A stretch of DNA of 64,000 nucleotides from Alphaproteobacteria bacterium (lineage in GTDB: Bacteria; Pseudomonadota; Alphaproteobacteria; Micropepsales; Micropepsaceae). Made by a program: the position numbers and the translations under genes. The stretch lies in assembly GCA_016125165.1 (NCBI GenBank), contig WGMH01000007.1:62001-126000 (forward strand), written 5' to 3'. The notes below the pieces were generated by a model. That model was given only the letters and a program-made list of their open reading frames with translations, had not been told where the DNA came from and did no database searches. Below, one piece after another: positions 11,777 through 19,879 of the stretch; position 1 is the first letter of the stretch, and every line of letters begins with the position of its first letter.

Positions 11777-13228
11777 TCACTGCTGCAGCGCGTCCAGCGC
11801 CTCGGCAAGTTCGCGTTCCATGCCGAAATAGCGCGCACGTTCCCAAAAGGCGGGACGCACAATGCCGGTGCCCTTGTGAACACCCTTCAACCGACCGGTT
11901 TCATCTTCGCCCGTGATCTCATAGTTCATCAGATCCTGGGTTATGATGACGTCGCCTTCCGTGCCGACCACTTCAGTAACTGTGGTGATGCGACGTGAAC
12001 CGTCGCGCATGCGTTCGGCCTGTATGATCACATCGATGGAGCCCACCACCATTTCGCGGATGGTTTTGACTGGCAACTGGAAGCCGCCCATGGTGATCAT
12101 GGATTCCAGGCGGGACAACGCTTCGCGCGGGCTGTTGGCGTGAAGCGTGCCCATTGAGCCGTCGTGGCCCGTATTCATTGCCTGCAGAAGGTCGAAAGCT
12201 TCGGGGCCGCGCACTTCACCCACGATAATGCGTTCGGGGCGCATGCGCAGACAGTTGCGCACAAGATCACGCATGGTGATCTGTCCTTGACCTTCCAGGT
12301 TTGGCGGACGGGTTTCCAGGCGCACGACATGCGGTTGCTGCAGTTGCAGTTCCGCGGCGTCTTCGCAGGTGATAATGCGCTCATCTGCATCGATATAAGC
12401 GGTCATGCAGTTGAGAAGGGTGGTCTTGCCGGAGCCCGTGCCGCCTGAAATCAGGATGTTGCACCGGGAGCGACCAACCACGCGCAGCATGCGCGCACCA
12501 GCTTCTGAAATCGAGCCGAAGCGCACGAGGTCATCGAGCTTCAGCTTGTCTTTCTTGAACTTTCTAATGGTGAGCGTGGGCCCATCCAGCGCCAACGGTG
12601 GAGCGATCACGTTCACGCGGGAGCCATCAAGCAGGCGTGCGTCGCAGATCGGTGAGGATTCGTCCACGCGCCGGCCGACCTGGCTCACGATCCGCTGGCA
12701 GATGTTCATCAACTGCGCGTTGTCGCGAAAGCGGATGTTTGTAAGCTGCACTTTGCCAGCGACTTCGATGAATACCCGGTTTGCGCCGTTGACCATGATA
12801 TCGGCAATGTCGTCTCGCGCCAGAAGTGGTTCCAGCGGACCGTAGCCGAGCACATCGTTGCAGATATCCTGCAACAGGTGCTCCTGCTCGGCGATGGACA
12901 TGACCACCGCCTTGATCGAGATGATCTCATTGACGATGTCGCGAATTTCTTCGCGCGCCGAATCCGGATCGAGCTGGGCCAGCTGTGCCAGATCGATCGT
13001 GTCAATCAACGCGTTAAAGATCGTCGTTTTGATCTGATAGTAGTCTTCCGAGCGCGGCTCGGATGTGCGAGCAGGCTTGGGGACGGGCGCCTGTACCGGA
13101 GAAGCGGCGGCCACAGGCGCGCGGGAAGGCTCCGGTGTCGGCGTTGACACTGCAGACTTCTCCACGCGCTCGGGCTGCGCGGGAATGGCGCGGGAAAGTT
13201 CAGACGTCGCACCACGCTTTCCGAACAT
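11777..13228 (-). CDS. cpaF: Tad pilus assembly/secretion ATPase CpaF (TadA)
   Basis: 483 residues. The N-terminal 80 residues are Pro/Ala-rich and variable. The rest is a type II/IV secretion ATPase: [18 protein letters not shown] (Walker A), [20 protein letters not shown] (Asp/His boxes), [19 protein letters not shown] (Walker B) and [13 protein letters not shown]. It powers Flp pilus extension, and retraction in Tad systems, at the cytoplasmic face through TadB/TadC. It lies 3 nt after cpaE and 10 nt before tadB in the same operon, so translational coupling is likely. Confidence 0.95.
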
Positions 13229-13231
13229 GAA

Positions 13232-14479
13232 TTATGCGCTCTTCTTGCCTTTGAAGATCGAAAACAGGCTCTTTTGCGGCAAGTGCGCCGTTCGTCCTGT
13301 CAACATTTCCGCCAGAGCCTTCACGCCTTCGGCGCTTTGCGAACGCGGCTGGACCTCAGGCAGCATCTGGCCGTTGTTGGACGCCGTGCCATAGAGGTTG
13401 GGATCGAAGGGAAGAAGCAGAGACGGCTCAAGACCGACAGTTGCCGCAAAATCTTTCACGGGAATCTCTGGACGTTTGGGCACGCCCATCTGATTGATGA
13501 CCAACTTCGGTGCAATGTCGTTCGGGCGGTTCTGCTTCAGCAGATCCGCAAGGGCCTTGCCATTGCGCAGCGATGCCAGGTCAGGCGTAGCGACGATGAC
13601 AATTTCGTCTGAGGCCAACAATGTCTGACGCACCCACGGGGTCCAGGCATGCGGCAGATCAATGACCACCGACGGCACGGCCTGACGAACCGCGTCCAGT
13701 ACCGATTCATAGGCATCGGGATCCGCTTCGGTCACACGGTCTATCGTAGCCGGCGCCGTGAACAGCGACAGGTAATCGCCGGCCTTGATCAAAAGGCGAT
13801 CCAGCAACACATCGTCAATGCGCTCCGGCGCGCTCAAGGCCTCTGAAATGCCTTGCCCGGGTTCTTCGTTGAAGTCGAGACCCACCGTGCCAAACGGCAA
13901 ATCGAGATCGACCAATGCGGTGTTGATCCGCATCGTCTCGGCGATACACCAAGCAACATTGTGCGCCAGCGTTGAGGAACCAACGCCACCGCGCGCACCC
14001 ACAAAACTCACCACCCTGCCGATCGGTGCGGCATCAGGACTCACATAGAGCCCGGCGATCACTTCAATCAGATGAAGCGGATTGACGGGCGCAACCATAT
14101 ACTCGCTAACGCCCCGGCGGATCAGTTCGCGATAGAGGTGCACATCGTTGACACGGCCGATAATGAGGACCTTGGTCGAAGGATCGCACACTTCGGCAAG
14201 GCGGTCGATTTCATCGAGCGCGATCTGCCCCTGCAAGCGCGTCTCCACGATCAACAGATTTGGTGTGATCTGGTTGCCGAGATGTTCGACGGCGGCTTCG
14301 ATGCCCCCCAGCTGCACGTTCACATGGGCCTTCGACAGGCGACGATCCGCAGCCGCACGCTGCAAGGCAGCGCCGGTATCGGGAAACTCGCAGAAGGCCT
14401 GAATCGAGATGCGCGGTACGGGCCGCTCATGAGGCGCTGCACCAAAGGCTTCTTCTTCCGGGGCTCCAAGTTTTGTCAT
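13232..14479 (-). CDS. cpaE: Tad pilus localisation ATPase CpaE (TadZ)
   Basis: 415 residues. The N-terminal half (about 20-140) has a receiver-like fold (IEAAVEHLGNQITPNLLIVETRL, KVLIIGRVNDVHLYRELIRRG), and the C-terminal half is a MinD/ParA-type ATPase with the deviant Walker A VSFVGARGGVGSSTLAHN and a LVDLDLPFGTVGLD Walker A'-region. CpaE/TadZ is thought to be the polar hub that places the Tad apparatus. The signature lysine of MinD-type Walker A (GKGGVGKT) is replaced by Ala-Arg-Gly-Gly-Val-Gly-Ser-Ser, as in many CpaE proteins, so ATPase activity may be weak. Operon position is between cpaD and cpaF. Confidence 0.92.
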   Translation of the reverse strand: MTKLGAPEEEAFGAAPHERPVPRISIQAFCEFPDTGAALQRAAADRRLSKAHVNVQLGGIEAAVEHLGNQITPNLLIVETRLQGQIALDEIDRLAEVCDPSTKVLIIGRVNDVHLYRELIRRGVSEYMVAPVNPLHLIEVIAGLYVSPDAAPIGRVVSFVGARGGVGSSTLAHNVAWCIAETMRINTALVDLDLPFGTVGLDFNEEPGQGISEALSAPERIDDVLLDRLLIKAGDYLSLFTAPATIDRVTEADPDAYESVLDAVRQAVPSVVIDLPHAWTPWVRQTLLASDEIVIVATPDLASLRNGKALADLLKQNRPNDIAPKLVINQMGVPKRPEIPVKDFAATVGLEPSLLLPFDPNLYGTASNNGQMLPEVQPRSQSAEGVKALAEMLTGRTAHLPQKSLFSIFKGKKSA

Positions 14480-14491
14480 TCGTTCCGCCCG

Positions 14492-15181
14492 CTACTTGAT
14501 CAGAGAACTCGAGCCGGATTGCTCGTTGGTCTTGTCGACCTTGTTCTTGTCGGCCTGGGTGATTTCACCCTTTTCGTACTTGCCCATCACTGTCATGCGG
14601 CGCGTTGCATCGGATTCGCCTAGTCCGCGCGGTTCGACGAGATCGCGCGGATCAGCCACCATGGCAGCCAGATTGTGCTGGGTGGCACACCCAAGATCCG
14701 GCATGGGGGCATTGGTATAGGTTTCTGCAGCATTCGCCGACCAATCACCGCATTTTCCAGTGCGGGCTGCATAGCCGATGAAGCCCAGCTGAACGCGGCC
14801 ATCGCCGATATCGTCCCGCGTGCCTACGAGTATTCGCGCGCGTGGAACGCCAAGCGCGGCAAGACGTTCGCCGAAATACCGGATGGCTTCGCTCGAATTC
14901 ACGCCCTGTGGCACCGAAACACTAAGCGCACCATTGCCGCTTTCAAGATAGTCGCGTGCAAAGCGGTCGAAGCGCAGAGCATCGTTATCCGAAAGCCCTG
15001 CAGCCCCCGGATAGAAACCCACGTCCAATGTGCGCATATCCGGCTCGACCGAGATAGGATGGTTCACACGCGGATCGGCCGCATAGCTCAGATTATAAGC
15101 TGGTGAGGCGCAGCTTCCCGCCACCAAGACGGCGCAAACAGATGCCGCCCGGATGATGTCGCGCATGGCTTTGGTCTTCAT
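14492..15181 (-). CDS. cpaD: Tad pilus outer-membrane lipoprotein CpaD
   Basis: 229 residues. Lipoprotein signal with Cys24 (LVAGSC). The body contains the CpaD landmarks: NHPISVEPDMRTLDV, the FARDYLESGNGALSVSVP region followed by a Rieske-like periplasmic fold, and CGDWSANAAETYTNAPMPDLGCATQHNLAAMVADPRDL near the end. CpaD accompanies the CpaC secretin at the outer membrane. Its start overlaps the cpaC stop by 4 nt (ATGA). Met6 is an alternative start and would leave the signal intact. Confidence 0.9.
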   Translation of the reverse strand: MKTKAMRDIIRAASVCAVLVAGSCASPAYNLSYAADPRVNHPISVEPDMRTLDVGFYPGAAGLSDNDALRFDRFARDYLESGNGALSVSVPQGVNSSEAIRYFGERLAALGVPRARILVGTRDDIGDGRVQLGFIGYAARTGKCGDWSANAAETYTNAPMPDLGCATQHNLAAMVADPRDLVEPRGLGESDATRRMTVMGKYEKGEITQADKNKVDKTNEQSGSSSLIK

Positions 15182-16608
15182 GGCACGATGAATCCTACTT
15201 TGCCCGGAGGCGTTGTTTTCGGCGCCGGTTTGTCGGCGTCATGCGTTTCGTTGAGCTTGCCCAAAAGGATCGTTTCCGGATCGGATGGCGCGACGAATTT
15301 GTCCGTCGGCAGCGCGATCTTGGACGCATGCGTCGGATCAACCAGATAGGCGCTCACCAGCACCACCAGTTCGGATTGGTCGCTCTGGAAATCGCGGCTA
15401 CGGAAGAGTGCGCCCAGAACCGGCATATCCTTGATTCCAGGGAATGCATCAATGGCTTGCTTGGAAGTGTTTTGCAGCAGTCCTGCAATTGCGAAGCTGC
15501 CACCCGACGGCAATTCCACGGTGGTCTCCGCACGGCGAACAGCGAGTGCCGGTATCGTCACGCCTGTGCCGCTTGTGCCACCCAGCGTGAAGGAGCCCGT
15601 GTTGGAAAGCTCGCTCACTTCGGTTGAAATCTGCAGCGAGATGCGGTTTTCGCTCAACACGACGGGTGTGAAGGACAATCCGACGCCGAATTGCTTGAAC
15701 TCAACTGTGATGTTGCCATCACGATCACGCGAGACCGGAACCGGGAATTCACCACCCGCCAGAAACTTCGCCGTTTCGCCACTCACCGCCGTCAGGTTCG
15801 GTTCGGCTAGTGTATGAATGAGGCCGACACGTTCCAGAGCCTTCAGAACCCCTTGGAGATTGTTGGATGCCGATGCGCAAACCGTCGAAACGACCGCGCA
15901 GCCGACCTGGACACCCGAGGCATCGCTGAGCGCCTGGCCCAGAAGGCTGAACTGGTTGTTCGTGGATCCGAAAACCGGAACGCCGCCCGCCTTTGCAACA
16001 CCTGTCAGGTCGATGCCGAACTGCTTGGCAATTGTGCGCTGCATTTCGGATACGCGTACGCTCAGCATCACCTGTTCCCTGGCGGTGATTTTGAGCATGT
16101 TCACGACCTTTTCCGGCGCACCGGCAAAGCGCGCCGCCAAGTCCTGTGCGCGTGCTGCTTCCGCGGCACTACCGACTGAGCCCGTGAGCACAACACTATC
16201 ATTCAACGCGGAAACCTTGATGCCGGTGCCTGGCATGTTGGCGCGCATCATGGCGGCGAGGTCGGTCACATCCTTTTCGACCCGAATGTCGATGGACAGA
16301 ATCTGCTGACCTTTGGAATCGAAGAAGAACGCGTTTGTCTGTCCCGTTTTCTGGGCCAGAAGAAAAATGCGACGCGGCGTGCGAACCACGGCATCCACGA
16401 TGTCGGGGTTCGATACCAGAACATCGCGGGCGTCTGTATCCAGTTGAACGATGGCAGCTTTGTCGAGTGCGAGTGTAATGCGCTCATGACTGCGTGCGCC
16501 GCCCTGCGTCGATATCGTGATCACGCGCGCATTCGATGGCGCCGCCGCCGCCGGAGCGGCGAATGCAAGCGCGACGACAATCGCGGCAATGAAAGAACGC
16601 GTGCGCAT
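15178..16608 (-). CDS. cpaC: Tad pilus secretin CpaC (RcpA)
   Basis: 476 residues. Signal peptide to about residue 23 (AAPAAAAPS), the pilus-specific secretin N-domain (about 30-110; LDKAAIVQLDTDARDVLVSNPDIVDAVV), a BON-like segment (VSALNDSVVLTGSVGSAAEA), and the secretin channel domain (about 180-430) with KFLAGGEFPVPVSRD, VRRAETTVELPSGGSFAIAGLLQ and FPGIKDMPVLGALFRS. It forms the outer-membrane pore for the Flp pilus. It is 6 nt after cpaB and overlaps cpaD. A separate short protein at 18563 resembles only the N-domain. Confidence 0.95.
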   Translation of the reverse strand: MRTRSFIAAIVVALAFAAPAAAAPSNARVITISTQGGARSHERITLALDKAAIVQLDTDARDVLVSNPDIVDAVVRTPRRIFLLAQKTGQTNAFFFDSKGQQILSIDIRVEKDVTDLAAMMRANMPGTGIKVSALNDSVVLTGSVGSAAEAARAQDLAARFAGAPEKVVNMLKITAREQVMLSVRVSEMQRTIAKQFGIDLTGVAKAGGVPVFGSTNNQFSLLGQALSDASGVQVGCAVVSTVCASASNNLQGVLKALERVGLIHTLAEPNLTAVSGETAKFLAGGEFPVPVSRDRDGNITVEFKQFGVGLSFTPVVLSENRISLQISTEVSELSNTGSFTLGGTSGTGVTIPALAVRRAETTVELPSGGSFAIAGLLQNTSKQAIDAFPGIKDMPVLGALFRSRDFQSDQSELVVLVSAYLVDPTHASKIALPTDKFVAPSDPETILLGKLNETHDADKPAPKTTPPGKVGFIVP

Positions 16609-16614
16609 GTTGCG

Positions 16615-17415
16615 CTACTCCCCTCTGCCCGGACCGCCCGGCATTACGCCGTAGCGGATCACGGCAACATCGCCGCTGGCTGCTTTGTCTTTGAGATTTT
16701 GCGCAACGTCATTCGATTGCGAATCGCCAAGCGCACGAAGCGTTAAAGAAAGCGTTCCCGATGCCTGCGCGCGCTGGACCGCCTCGGCCTGCCCAGACGA
16801 AAGTTCGAGCGTCGCGGTCTTGGCATCCGAGACAACCTTCTGGTCGCTGCCAGGGGTAAATGTCTGATCGACCGCCAGCACGCGCACGGCGTTCAAAATC
16901 GTGCGTGTGCGGAATATGCGCGGCGAATCGGAAACCTGTTCCGTGACCAGAACGTCAACCCGGTCATTCGGCAGGATAAATCCACCAGCACCGGTTGCCG
17001 TATTGATTCCAATCGAAACGGCCCGCATACCCGGCGTAAGCATGGCAGCCATATAGCCGCCGCCGTCCGCGCGAACGATCTTTGTCTGGCTGAACGGCTC
17101 GCCCTGCACCATCGGCGCGCGAACAACCGTATCCTGAACCAGCTTGTCGAGGCTCGGTGTGTTGTGACGCGTGATGAATGTCGAGTCCACCGCGCTCTGC
17201 GGCCATTCCTGCCACGTCACGGAACCGAGCGAAAGTTTTGTGCCGGCAGGCAACGCTTGTGCTGCGACAAGCACTTCCTCAGTCGGAATTTTTTGCGGCT
17301 GAATTGCAGCCTGCGTCGTTTCGGTGCCACCACCGAGAAGACCGCGCACAAGCAATGCAGCAAGACCGGCTGCGATAGCAGCAACGGCCAGAACGATGAC
17401 GCGCGATCTGTTCAT
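16615..17415 (-). CDS. cpaB: Tad pilus periplasmic protein CpaB (RcpC)
   Basis: 266 residues. One N-terminal membrane segment (about 6-27), then a SAF/antifreeze-like beta-clip domain (TEEVLVAAQALPAGTKLSLGSVTWQEWP) and the RcpC C-domain with MAAMLTPGMRAVSIGINTATGAGGFI and DRVDVLVTEQ. CpaB links inner-membrane machinery to the secretin in the periplasm. It lies 88 nt downstream of cpaA, with no clear terminator between them. Confidence 0.92.
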   Translation of the reverse strand: MNRSRVIVLAVAAIAAGLAALLVRGLLGGGTETTQAAIQPQKIPTEEVLVAAQALPAGTKLSLGSVTWQEWPQSAVDSTFITRHNTPSLDKLVQDTVVRAPMVQGEPFSQTKIVRADGGGYMAAMLTPGMRAVSIGINTATGAGGFILPNDRVDVLVTEQVSDSPRIFRTRTILNAVRVLAVDQTFTPGSDQKVVSDAKTATLELSSGQAEAVQRAQASGTLSLTLRALGDSQSNDVAQNLKDKAASGDVAVIRYGVMPGGPGRGE

Positions 17416-17503: not shown

Positions 17504-18010
17504 CTACCCCAGGCCTCGCGCAAACACATCCGTGTGCGGCAGTATCGTGAGCGCCGCCAAGGACAGTGCGATTCCGTAGGGAATTCCCGAGCGGTGATCA
17601 TGCAACCGGGCTATCCACCCCTGTGCAGCCAGCGTCTGCGGCAAGGGAATGCGGCGCAGGGCCAAAAGCATCAGCGTCAGAAGCCCGCCGAAGAGGGAGG
17701 CAGTGATCGCGTAGTCCAGAATGCTGGACAGGCCCAGCCAGAGCGTAACACAGGCAAAGAGTTTGGCGTCCCCTCCACCCACATAGCCCAGCGCGAAGAG
17801 CGTGAAGCCGATAGCCAGACCGACAAAGCCCGCCAAGACATGCATGGCGAAGGCTTCTGTACCAAGGGGGACTGCAAGTGAAAATGTCACGAAAGCGGCA
17901 AGCAATCCCGCCTGAATACGGTTCGGAATCGTGAAGCTCGCCGCGTCATACGCAGCCGCTGCGACGAGCAGCGCGGGAAGGACAAAGAGGATGAGCCCCT
18001 GGGCAAGCAT
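17504..18010 (-). CDS. cpaA: Prepilin peptidase CpaA (TadV), A24 family
   Basis: 168 residues, six hydrophobic segments. The two aspartate sites of A24A peptidases are present: the N-terminal Asp in AAYDAASFTIPNRI and the GGGDAKLF motif. It cleaves the leader of Flp pilin and of TadE/TadF-type pseudopilins on the cytoplasmic side of the inner membrane. The start MLAQGLILF fits the family; the frame is open 15 codons upstream, but that stretch would lie inside the intergenic hairpin. It is the first gene after the pilin and hairpin. Confidence 0.92.
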   Translation of the reverse strand: MLAQGLILFVLPALLVAAAAYDAASFTIPNRIQAGLLAAFVTFSLAVPLGTEAFAMHVLAGFVGLAIGFTLFALGYVGGGDAKLFACVTLWLGLSSILDYAITASLFGGLLTLMLLALRRIPLPQTLAAQGWIARLHDHRSGIPYGIALSLAALTILPHTDVFARGLG

Positions 18011-18030
18011 CAGCGTGGCCTCAAAAGCAA

Positions 18031-18064
18031 ATCTGTTCCGCAGGCGGTGGCCCACGGAACAGAT
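18031..18064 (-). terminator. Hairpin with T-rich tail between flp pilin and cpaA (probable attenuator)
   Basis: ATCTGTTCCG and CGGAACAGAT form a perfect 10-bp stem around a 14-nt loop. Read on the minus strand it is followed by TTGCTTTTGA and ends 20 nt before the cpaA start. It lies 28 nt after the pilin stop. Such a structure would leave most transcripts carrying only the pilin, or would protect the pilin mRNA 3' end. Partial termination is inferred. Confidence 0.65.
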
Positions 18065-18092
18065 CTGGTAACCATCCGATACCTTCGCCGAC

Positions 18093-18257
18093 TTACTTTA
18101 CAGCAGCCGCGACGGTGTTGAACGTGCCGGTCAGGTTCGTACCGACCAGCTGGACGGCAGCGATGATGACGACGGCAATGCCCGCCGCGATCAGACCATA
18201 TTCAATGGCCGTCGCGCCGGATTCATCGCGAAAGAAACGAGCAGCAAGATTGCGCAT
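18093..18257 (-). CDS. flp: Flp family type IVb pilin
   Basis: 54 residues, the small size of Flp pilins. A basic leader MRNLAARFFRDESG precedes the processing site GATAIEYGLIAAG: CpaA is expected to cut after the Gly, exposing ATAIEY, with the diagnostic Glu-Tyr pair. The rest is one hydrophobic helix and a short polar tail. A GGAGG lies 6-10 nt before the ATG. It is the first gene of the pilus operon, preceded by a TTAA-N7-TTAA site. The upstream in-frame extension to 18365 is non-coding-like. Confidence 0.95.
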   Translation of the reverse strand: MRNLAARFFRDESGATAIEYGLIAAGIAVVIIAAVQLVGTNLTGTFNTVAAAVK

Positions 18258-18354
18258 AAGAGCCTCCACTTGTTTTTGACACCCTAGGACGTCCGGCCCG
18301 CAGCGAGTGCATCCGGGCGCAAGGACTGACACGGGCAACTCTATGCGTTCGGGA

Positions 18355-18369
18355 TTAATGGCCACTTAA
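18355..18369. promoter_or_regulatory. CtrA-type binding site TTAA-N7-TTAA (pilin side)
   Basis: TTAATGGCCACTTAA is an exact match to the CtrA consensus of Alphaproteobacteria, 98 nt upstream of the flp start codon. The site is symmetrical, so it gives no strand preference. Function inferred from the Caulobacter pilA precedent. Confidence 0.65.
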
Positions 18370-18497
18370 TTGAAGGACTCACTGCGACACGCTTGCTGCT
18401 CCATCCCGGAACAGAACGGACGATTCCAAGGTTCCGTGTGCGCTACAGCAAACCGAATTTTTACCATGCGACGCAATTCCCAGCGAATGTGTGGTGC

Positions 18498-18512
18498 TTA
18501 AAGCCTCATTAA
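18498..18512. promoter_or_regulatory. CtrA-type binding site TTAA-N7-TTAA (secretin N-domain side)
   Basis: TTAAAGCCTCATTAA is a second exact match, 50 nt before the ATG of the plus-strand pilus gene. That is where a site overlapping the -35 region would lie. It is 143 nt from the first site. Confidence 0.65.
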
Positions 18513-18562
18513 GTGGCGCACCGCTAAAGTCTCAGACGAGTTCACCTTGCAAGGAACGCATC

Positions 18563-19030
18563 ATGCGCGCATCCGTCAGACGTCTTGGCGCTTCACTGAT
18601 TGCGTCCACCGCCTTCGGCCTTTTCAGCACGGCGGCGCTGGCGGGCGATATCAGCGTGCCCATGGACGAAGTGCAGATGCTGACTTTCACCCGTCCTGTT
18701 TCGACTGTTTACGTTGGAAACCCGTCGGTGGCGGACGTGACCGTAATCGATGCAACCCACGTGTTCGTGTTGGGCCGTGCTTTCGGACGCACGAACCTGA
18801 TTGCGCTTGGCCCCGACGGCAAGCAGGTTACGAATTCGCGCATCAACGTGTATGGCCGCGGTGGCTCTACCGTTACGGTTCAGCGTGGTTCGAATGCGGT
18901 GACCTACGCCTGCTCGGGAAGCCAGTGCCATCCCGCCCCCGTGCCCGGCGACAATGCGACCGTGTTCGACTCTGTCACGGGGCAGGTTGCCAAGAGCCTG
19001 GAAATGGGTCTGAAGGCTGCCGGCAAATAA
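18563..19030 (+). CDS. Stand-alone pilus secretin N-terminal-domain protein
   Basis: 155 residues. Signal peptide ending in AALA (about residue 27), then the pilus-formation N-domain also found at the start of CpaC: DEVQMLTFTRPVSTVYVGNPSVADVTVIDATHVFVLGRAFGRTNLI. It has no secretin channel. The C-terminal 50 residues are distinct and contain a Cys-x4-Cys pair (YACSGSQCHPAP). It is expected in the periplasm, possibly assisting or capping the CpaC secretin. It is divergent from the flp operon with its own CtrA-type site. An AAGGA lies about 8 nt before the chosen ATG; a start at 18491 would place the CtrA box in coding sequence. Confidence 0.8.
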   Translation: MRASVRRLGASLIASTAFGLFSTAALAGDISVPMDEVQMLTFTRPVSTVYVGNPSVADVTVIDATHVFVLGRAFGRTNLIALGPDGKQVTNSRINVYGRGGSTVTVQRGSNAVTYACSGSQCHPAPVPGDNATVFDSVTGQVAKSLEMGLKAAGK

Positions 19031-19048
19031 ATTCGGCAGCTTCCGGTC

Positions 19049-19879
19049 CTATTTCAGGATCGGGTAGAAGAACTGCAGCGCCAGATTTTTGGGAAATTGC
19101 GGATCGTCGATGCCGTAGCTTTGCGGCAATTCGTTTTCGGGCATGTAAAACGTCCCGAACATCCAGTCCCACAGCGCGAATGTCCCGGCAAAATTCCTGT
19201 TTCCCCCCAGGTCTGGTGAGGTGTGATGCCACCGGTGAAAGACCGGGCTGGCAATGACGCGCTTCAACGGCCCGAATGACCAGTTCAGATTCGCATGCAC
19301 CATGGCCGAAGTCAGAATATTGAAGGGTCCCACCACCAGAAAGATATCGGTGGAGATGCCAGCGAGAATAAACGCGACGTCCACCAACACGGTCCCAAGC
19401 ATCAAATTAAATGGGTGGAAGCGCCAGGCGGAGATCCATTCCAGGTCTTCGGATGAGTGATGGACCGCGTGGTATTTCCAGAATGGATCGCGGTGGAACA
19501 TACGGTGTGACCAATAAAGCAGGAAATCTGAGCCCACCACGAAGATCGCAGCCTGAATCCAGAGCGGTAATTTCGCCAATAGGCCATGCCCATGATCATA
19601 AAGCCTGACCATGTCCTCGCCGGAAGTGATCCCAAGAAGGTAGATGGTGAACAGGATCGTGAGACCGATACGCACATAGCGTGTGAAGATTGGAATCAAT
19701 ATCCAGTATGCGAGGTCGGTGGCGAGGCCGCGCTTCCTCCACCACGGCCGACCGCCGTTGCAGGGTGCAAAAAGCGACAAGATCGAGAAGATTGCTGCAG
19801 CGGCCAGGGTGGCCGGCAGCATCCGTTCCACCGTGTGCAAAATCTGCGAAACCGTCTCCAGAAAATCGGCCCAATGCAT
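19049..19879 (-). CDS. Sterol desaturase/fatty acid hydroxylase family membrane protein
   Basis: 276 residues, four to five hydrophobic segments. All histidine boxes of the diiron hydroxylase superfamily are present: HRMFH, HAVHHSSED and HRWHH, plus the DFLLYWSHR context. Family members hydroxylate or desaturate lipids, including carotenoids, fatty acids, sterols or ornithine lipids; the substrate here is unknown. It begins 13 nt after the upstream TadG-like gene on the same strand, so it is probably on the same transcript although it has no known pilus function. It converges with the secretin N-domain gene. Confidence 0.88.
   Translation of the reverse strand: MHWADFLETVSQILHTVERMLPATLAAAAIFSILSLFAPCNGGRPWWRKRGLATDLAYWILIPIFTRYVRIGLTILFTIYLLGITSGEDMVRLYDHGHGLLAKLPLWIQAAIFVVGSDFLLYWSHRMFHRDPFWKYHAVHHSSEDLEWISAWRFHPFNLMLGTVLVDVAFILAGISTDIFLVVGPFNILTSAMVHANLNWSFGPLKRVIASPVFHRWHHTSPDLGGNRNFAGTFALWDWMFGTFYMPENELPQSYGIDDPQFPKNLALQFFYPILK

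Follow-up and report, generated by a model that had tools for sequence, protein, structure and literature searches.

The intergenic region between flp, which encodes a Flp/Fap pilin, and a divergent gene for a small secretin N-domain protein, most likely cpaI, contains two perfect CtrA-type boxes. We consider it probable, at roughly 85%, that CtrA binds these boxes at two distinct promoters pointing in opposite directions, through which flp and the likely cpaI gene would be activated together at a late stage of the cell cycle. The two perfect boxes, their spacing to predicted -10 elements and their conservation in relatives point to CtrA as the likely switch of both genes.

In the window (the whole stretch of DNA that was analysed, 64 kb in length), positions 18258-18562 make up the complete gap of 305 nucleotides between the flp start at 18257 on the minus strand and the N-domain gene, whose ATG is at 18563 on the plus strand. 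The G+C content of this gap is 54%. A pattern search of the window for TTAA-N7-TTAA returned two copies, at 18355-18369 and 18498-18512, both of them within the gap (Table 1). The coordinates of the two boxes in the original prediction were borne out by this search, and the distance of 50 nucleotides that it gave between the second box and the N-domain gene was correct. It had further held that two chance copies would be unlikely. In 100 dinucleotide shuffles of the window, the pattern occurred 0.09 times on average and once at most, and two copies were found in none of the 100, in agreement with that view. Two GANTC words, known as the CcrM methylation word (PMC2877005), lie between the boxes at window positions 18376 and 18422; their number is about what chance might give. 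An Rfam scan of 17900-19100 gave no match, and generic scans of 18000-18700 found no terminator and no sigma-70 promoter-like pair.

Table 1. Predicted promoter elements and genes of the Tad locus, in window coordinates.
Feature	Position	Strand	Sequence or evidence
Putative flp-promoter box, perfect CtrA-type full site TTAA-N7-TTAA	18355..18369	-	TTAATGGCCACTTAA; toward flp, TTAAGTGGCCATTAA
Putative promoter box of the N-domain gene (likely cpaI), perfect CtrA-type full site TTAA-N7-TTAA	18498..18512	+	TTAAAGCCTCATTAA
Predicted -10 of flp, TAGAGT	18338..18343	-	bases 27-32 from the first base of the box
Predicted -10 of the likely cpaI gene, TAAAGT	18525..18530	+	bases 28-33 from the first base of the box
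flp, Flp/Fap pilin, 54 aa	18093..18257	-	PF04964, 66.2 bits
Stand-alone secretin N-domain protein, 155 aa, most likely CpaI	18563..19030	+	PF13629, 74.6 bits (scanned with a longer start)
cpaA-like prepilin peptidase, downstream of flp	17504..18055	-	PF01478
cpaB	16615..17415	-	PF16976; TIGR03177, 205.6 bits
cpaC-like secretin with a PF13629 N-domain of its own	15178..16608	-	PF00263, PF13629
cpaD-like	14492..15181	-	PF09476
ATPase, presumably cpaE	13232..14479	-	PF13614
ATPase, presumably cpaF	11777..13228	-	PF00437

The spacing of the half-sites was analyzed in the whole genome and in the genus. TTAA-N7-TTAA occurs 17 times in the genome of 3.04 Mb. Pairs of TTAA at all spacings from 0 to 30 number 61, these 17 included, and the remaining 30 spacings are represented by about 1.5 pairs each on average. 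In 69 genomes of the genus, 1024 pairs with N7 were counted versus 253 with N8, and N7 led in 68 of the 69. Spacing 7 between TTAA half-sites is strongly preferred. The reversed pattern, AATT-N7-AATT, was found 13 times in the genome. Since the two words differ in frequency (over spacings 0 to 30, 619 pairs of AATT versus 61 of TTAA), the reversed count was not taken as the main control, and the other TTAA spacings in the same genome were used in its place. The genome-wide count proposed with the original prediction shows an enrichment of N7 when it is measured against the other TTAA spacings, while the 13 reversed copies taken alone would suggest none.

At activated Caulobacter promoters, as described by Zhou et al., a full CtrA site is located near -35, with the 5' end of the box at -39 (PMC4287350). 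When the first base of each box in the present gap is set to -39, a TANNNT element falls at -13 to -8 for flp and at -12 to -7 for the N-domain gene. The predicted -10 element is thus at the normal position on both sides, and the -39 rule of PMC4287350 would place the transcription starts at about 18330 (flp, minus strand) and about 18537 (N-domain gene, plus strand). The two promoters would share with the Caulobacter full-site activated promoters, as that paper presents them, TTAA-N7-TTAA over -35 and TANNNT at a normal -10; those have measured starts and a measured cell-cycle profile, whereas the starts given here are predicted (PMC4287350). In the whole genome, TTAA-N7-TTWA with TANNNT in register was found four times, two of them in this gap, and zero times for the reversed pattern. 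Just four of the 17 genomic boxes are in the activation register.

A search of 195 genomes for the N-domain protein gave a match in 102, including 51 of the 69 of the genus. The comparison covered 70 loci, namely one for each matching genome of the genus (51, counting the present one) plus 19 of other genera, and used neither second or secretin-only matches nor the weaker ones of other genera. Counts for flp rest on 41 genus loci, as ten of the 51 had no divergent flp of at least 35 bits in the stretch examined. Shuffles used for the boxes and -10 elements of relatives preserve base composition only, and the genus genomes behind the conservation counts are not independent of each other. A perfect TTAA-N7-TTAA lies within 160 nucleotides of flp in 30 of the 41 loci, the next spacing being N11 with three. 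On the N-domain side, TTAA-N7-TTWA was found in 37 of 51 loci (six perfect, the rest TTAA-N7-TTTA). TANNNT begins at base 27 or 28 from the box in 29 of the 30 flp boxes and in all 37 N-domain boxes of the genus, and in about one when the downstream bases were shuffled.

When one mismatch in the box was allowed, a box with TANNNT 26-27 nucleotides after its first base was found at 40/41 flp genes and 45/51 N-domain genes of the genus (shuffled means 0.02 and 0.04, respectively). The same relaxed test at N8 gave 14/41 and 27/51; at least some of these reflect a TTTAA half-site, which fits either register. The relaxed test missed one locus on the flp side (L041) and six on the N-domain side (L027, L028, L029, L030, L039 and L059); start codons on the N-domain side were placed by extrapolating from alignments, and some of these misses may stem from that. 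Perfect boxes on both sides are present in five of the 41 loci, including this window. In other genera, a box with its -10 was found at 8/19 flp sides and at 0/19 N-domain sides. The twin arrangement is therefore established for this genus only. Before the N-domain gene, 12 of these 19 loci have TTCA-N7-TTMA (e.g. TTCAGACATCCTTAA), with no -10 in register.

The gap between flp and the N-domain gene varies from 285 to 2023 nucleotides in the genus. Where the gap is longer than 550 nucleotides, 14 of the 18 loci retain both boxes, each close to the gene it would serve, and at shorter gaps 22 of the 23 do. Since each box tracks its own gene, the boxes seem to belong to two promoters and not to one shared bidirectional unit, an arrangement that is disfavoured by the loci in which the genes lie far apart.

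It is worth considering that the boxes may bind CtrA and mainly repress or delay transcription, or that each may serve the opposite promoter. Each box is also located upstream of the other promoter, and the C. crescentus pilA promoter, in the account of PMC11264516, has four CtrA sites, of which those farther upstream make expression weaker and later. However, each box in the present gap has a candidate -10 in the activation register, and the boxes stay with their own genes when these are far apart. In addition, the repressing full site reported in PMC4287350 was at -14; a single site, lying at -39 relative to one start and at -14 relative to another, was described there as a likely activator of the former and repressor of the latter. 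We therefore regard repression, delay or a crossed assignment of the boxes as improbable, and activation of the nearer gene by each box as the preferred reading.

The original prediction depended on a ctrA gene in the genome, and one was found at C2:224976-225653, with a score of 423.9 bits (equivalog cut-off 350) and a product 81% identical to the C. crescentus CtrA sequence used for comparison. Both chpT (108.3 bits in Pfam; 221.4 in NCBIfam, where the cut-off is 240) and sciP (144.5 bits) are also present, as is a CckA-like kinase with 642 bits, under the cut-off of 1000. Upstream of ctrA itself is a TTAA-N8-TTAA pair, TTAAAGCTGCTGTTAACCAT (C2:224895-224910), and an N8 pair about 85 nucleotides before a CtrA-like gene is also found in genus genomes G030, G056 and G067. 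These N8 pairs suggest a conserved autoregulation. GcrA was not found in the genome, the assembly of which is 95.57% complete. The missing gene first suggested a GcrA-less circuit. GcrA is present in 63 of the 69 genus genomes, however, and a gap in the assembly is therefore as likely here as a loss.

A second CtrA-like regulator is encoded at C8:603367-604056 (303.9 bits, under the CtrA cut-off of 350), close to a LuxR-type regulator, a PAS histidine kinase and an IS200-like transposase domain. With CtrA it has 59-60% identity and much of the C-terminal DNA-binding part in common, so that this paralogue might control the boxes in the place of CtrA, and control would then be independent of the cell cycle. 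Two CtrA-like matches at E 1e-60 were found in at least four of the 69 genus genomes, whereas the boxes are kept across the genus. The paralogue is therefore a quite improbable regulator of the boxes. With the paralogue as the query, eight of the 69 genomes had no match at E 1e-60 among the matches listed, and some of these eight nevertheless carry boxes. Finally, the 54% G+C of the gap and the 13 reversed copies in the genome would leave some room for chance A/T-rich words, but the shuffles, the preference for spacing 7 and the conserved boxes with a fixed -10 register in relatives lead us to reject a chance origin.

The description of the pilin's partner as a stand-alone secretin N-domain protein held: PF13629 is the only domain found, there is no secretin barrel, and Tad genes lie alongside. 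What can be added is that this protein is most likely CpaI, which acts as a bridge within the Tad machine in the periplasm. A profile built from 30 relatives of the protein matches RcpA, the Tad secretin of P. aeruginosa, with an E-value of 1.7e-7, and the protein is 25% identical to the N-domain of the genome's own secretin over 67 residues (E 1e-6). No NCBIfam model matched it. The structure model is confident at about residues 31-90 (mean pLDDT 76.1, pTM 0.49), and C-terminal strands are modelled at 102-108, 111-118 and 121-124, in a block with a pLDDT of about 70 at the same pTM. The best fold matches include VirB9-type chains, and the N-domain of RcpA has itself been called VirB9-like (PMC10499894). 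RcpA is not among the structure matches listed; another secretin, 9wfd_A, is in both listings. The fold match by itself proves little, because unrelated Ig-like folds score equally high or higher and a Foldseek search with the model found no hit with an E-value of 0.001 or below.

Caulobacter CpaI is described in PMC13170226 as a periplasmic protein that is required for pili and bridges CpaC and the alignment complex, with a predicted RcpA N-domain fold followed by a three-strand C-terminal sheet, and expression of its gene is reported there to follow that of the ring genes. The protein in the window shares with it, on that description, the small size, the secretin N-domain and the place in a pilus locus. 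That paper makes no mention of CtrA (PMC13170226). A CpaI-like gene also adjoins pilA in S. meliloti (PMC10934763).

Genes with cpaA, cpaB, cpaC, cpaD, cpaE and cpaF domains follow flp in the same direction. Two of the names in Table 1, cpaE for the PF13614 ATPase gene and cpaF for the PF00437 ATPase gene, are our assumption from position.

Enrichment of the box at flagellar and pilus genes had also been raised, and it was found in part. Besides the two boxes of this gap, two boxes 54 nucleotides apart lie at C2:543298-543366, between flgBC-like genes and a set containing fliP, and one lies at C8:19481-19495, upstream of a mutT-like gene behind which a second Flp/Fap pilin gene is found. The rest of the 17 are elsewhere. 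One is located about 50 nucleotides before chpT, and the remaining boxes adjoin genes for an acyl-CoA dehydrogenase, an M23 peptidase and nucleotide-sugar enzymes, a response-regulator-like gene, a DUF2336 gene and further genes, or lie in a convergent gap beside motA. Motility and pilus genes are therefore well represented among the boxes, though not exclusively. Box pairs 54 nucleotides apart also occur in genus genomes G038, G053 and G060, and a pair 51 nucleotides apart in G030. The order of the mutT-like gene and Flp matches that of Caulobacter CCNA_00875-00876, where an internal start with a putative CtrA site is given in PMC4287350.

Since CtrA activates pilA in C. crescentus, a CtrA-driven pilin in a Tad locus is to be expected. 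According to PMC11264516, this activation occurs via a site at -35 and is delayed by further sites, and the pilus ring genes of that organism depend on GcrA. The flp promoter predicted here would have in common with the pilA promoter that a CtrA site at -35 precedes a pilin gene. The four sites of pilA, however, are all off consensus in that account, the upstream ones delaying expression (PMC11264516), whereas here each promoter would have one perfect site, the second serving the divergent gene. Divergent promoters under CtrA, which is a prediction in the present case, are also described for flagellar genes of Rhodobacter sphaeroides, but those promoters are only a few base pairs apart and their half-sites are separated by 6 bp (PMC6180460). 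Here each promoter would have its own N7 site, and the two sites start 143 nucleotides apart.

On the preferred reading, phosphorylated CtrA would bind each box over the -35 position and would bring RNA polymerase to the predicted -10, which begins 26-27 nucleotides after the first base of the box. In this way, flp and the likely cpaI gene would be switched on simultaneously, at a late point of the cell cycle. The pilin would be made with CpaA, and perhaps with the products of the co-directional Tad genes behind it. CpaI would link the CpaC secretin to the alignment ring of the inner membrane, and the pilin and CpaI may thus be produced jointly as the last parts that permit extension of the pilus. 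A broader idea, which we put forward only tentatively, is that with one regulator and mirror-image promoters CtrA both closes and loads the Tad machine in one late step, and that this arrangement has been kept in the genus despite insertions that separate the genes.

The original prediction of CtrA control is upheld as the likely reading and gains strength for this genus. Control of pilA by CtrA is already known, and the pairing of the pilin with the likely cpaI gene is the modest new point of this analysis. No open-licence paper was found that contains the whole words cpaI, CtrA and pilA together, supplementary tables being outside the scope of the search. The predicted CtrA promoter of the likely cpaI gene, opposite that of the pilin, suggests how the late expression of cpaI can be wired. 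The arrangement yields two exact predictions of start sites and bears on whether the bridge protein is the timed step in the assembly of the Tad pilus.
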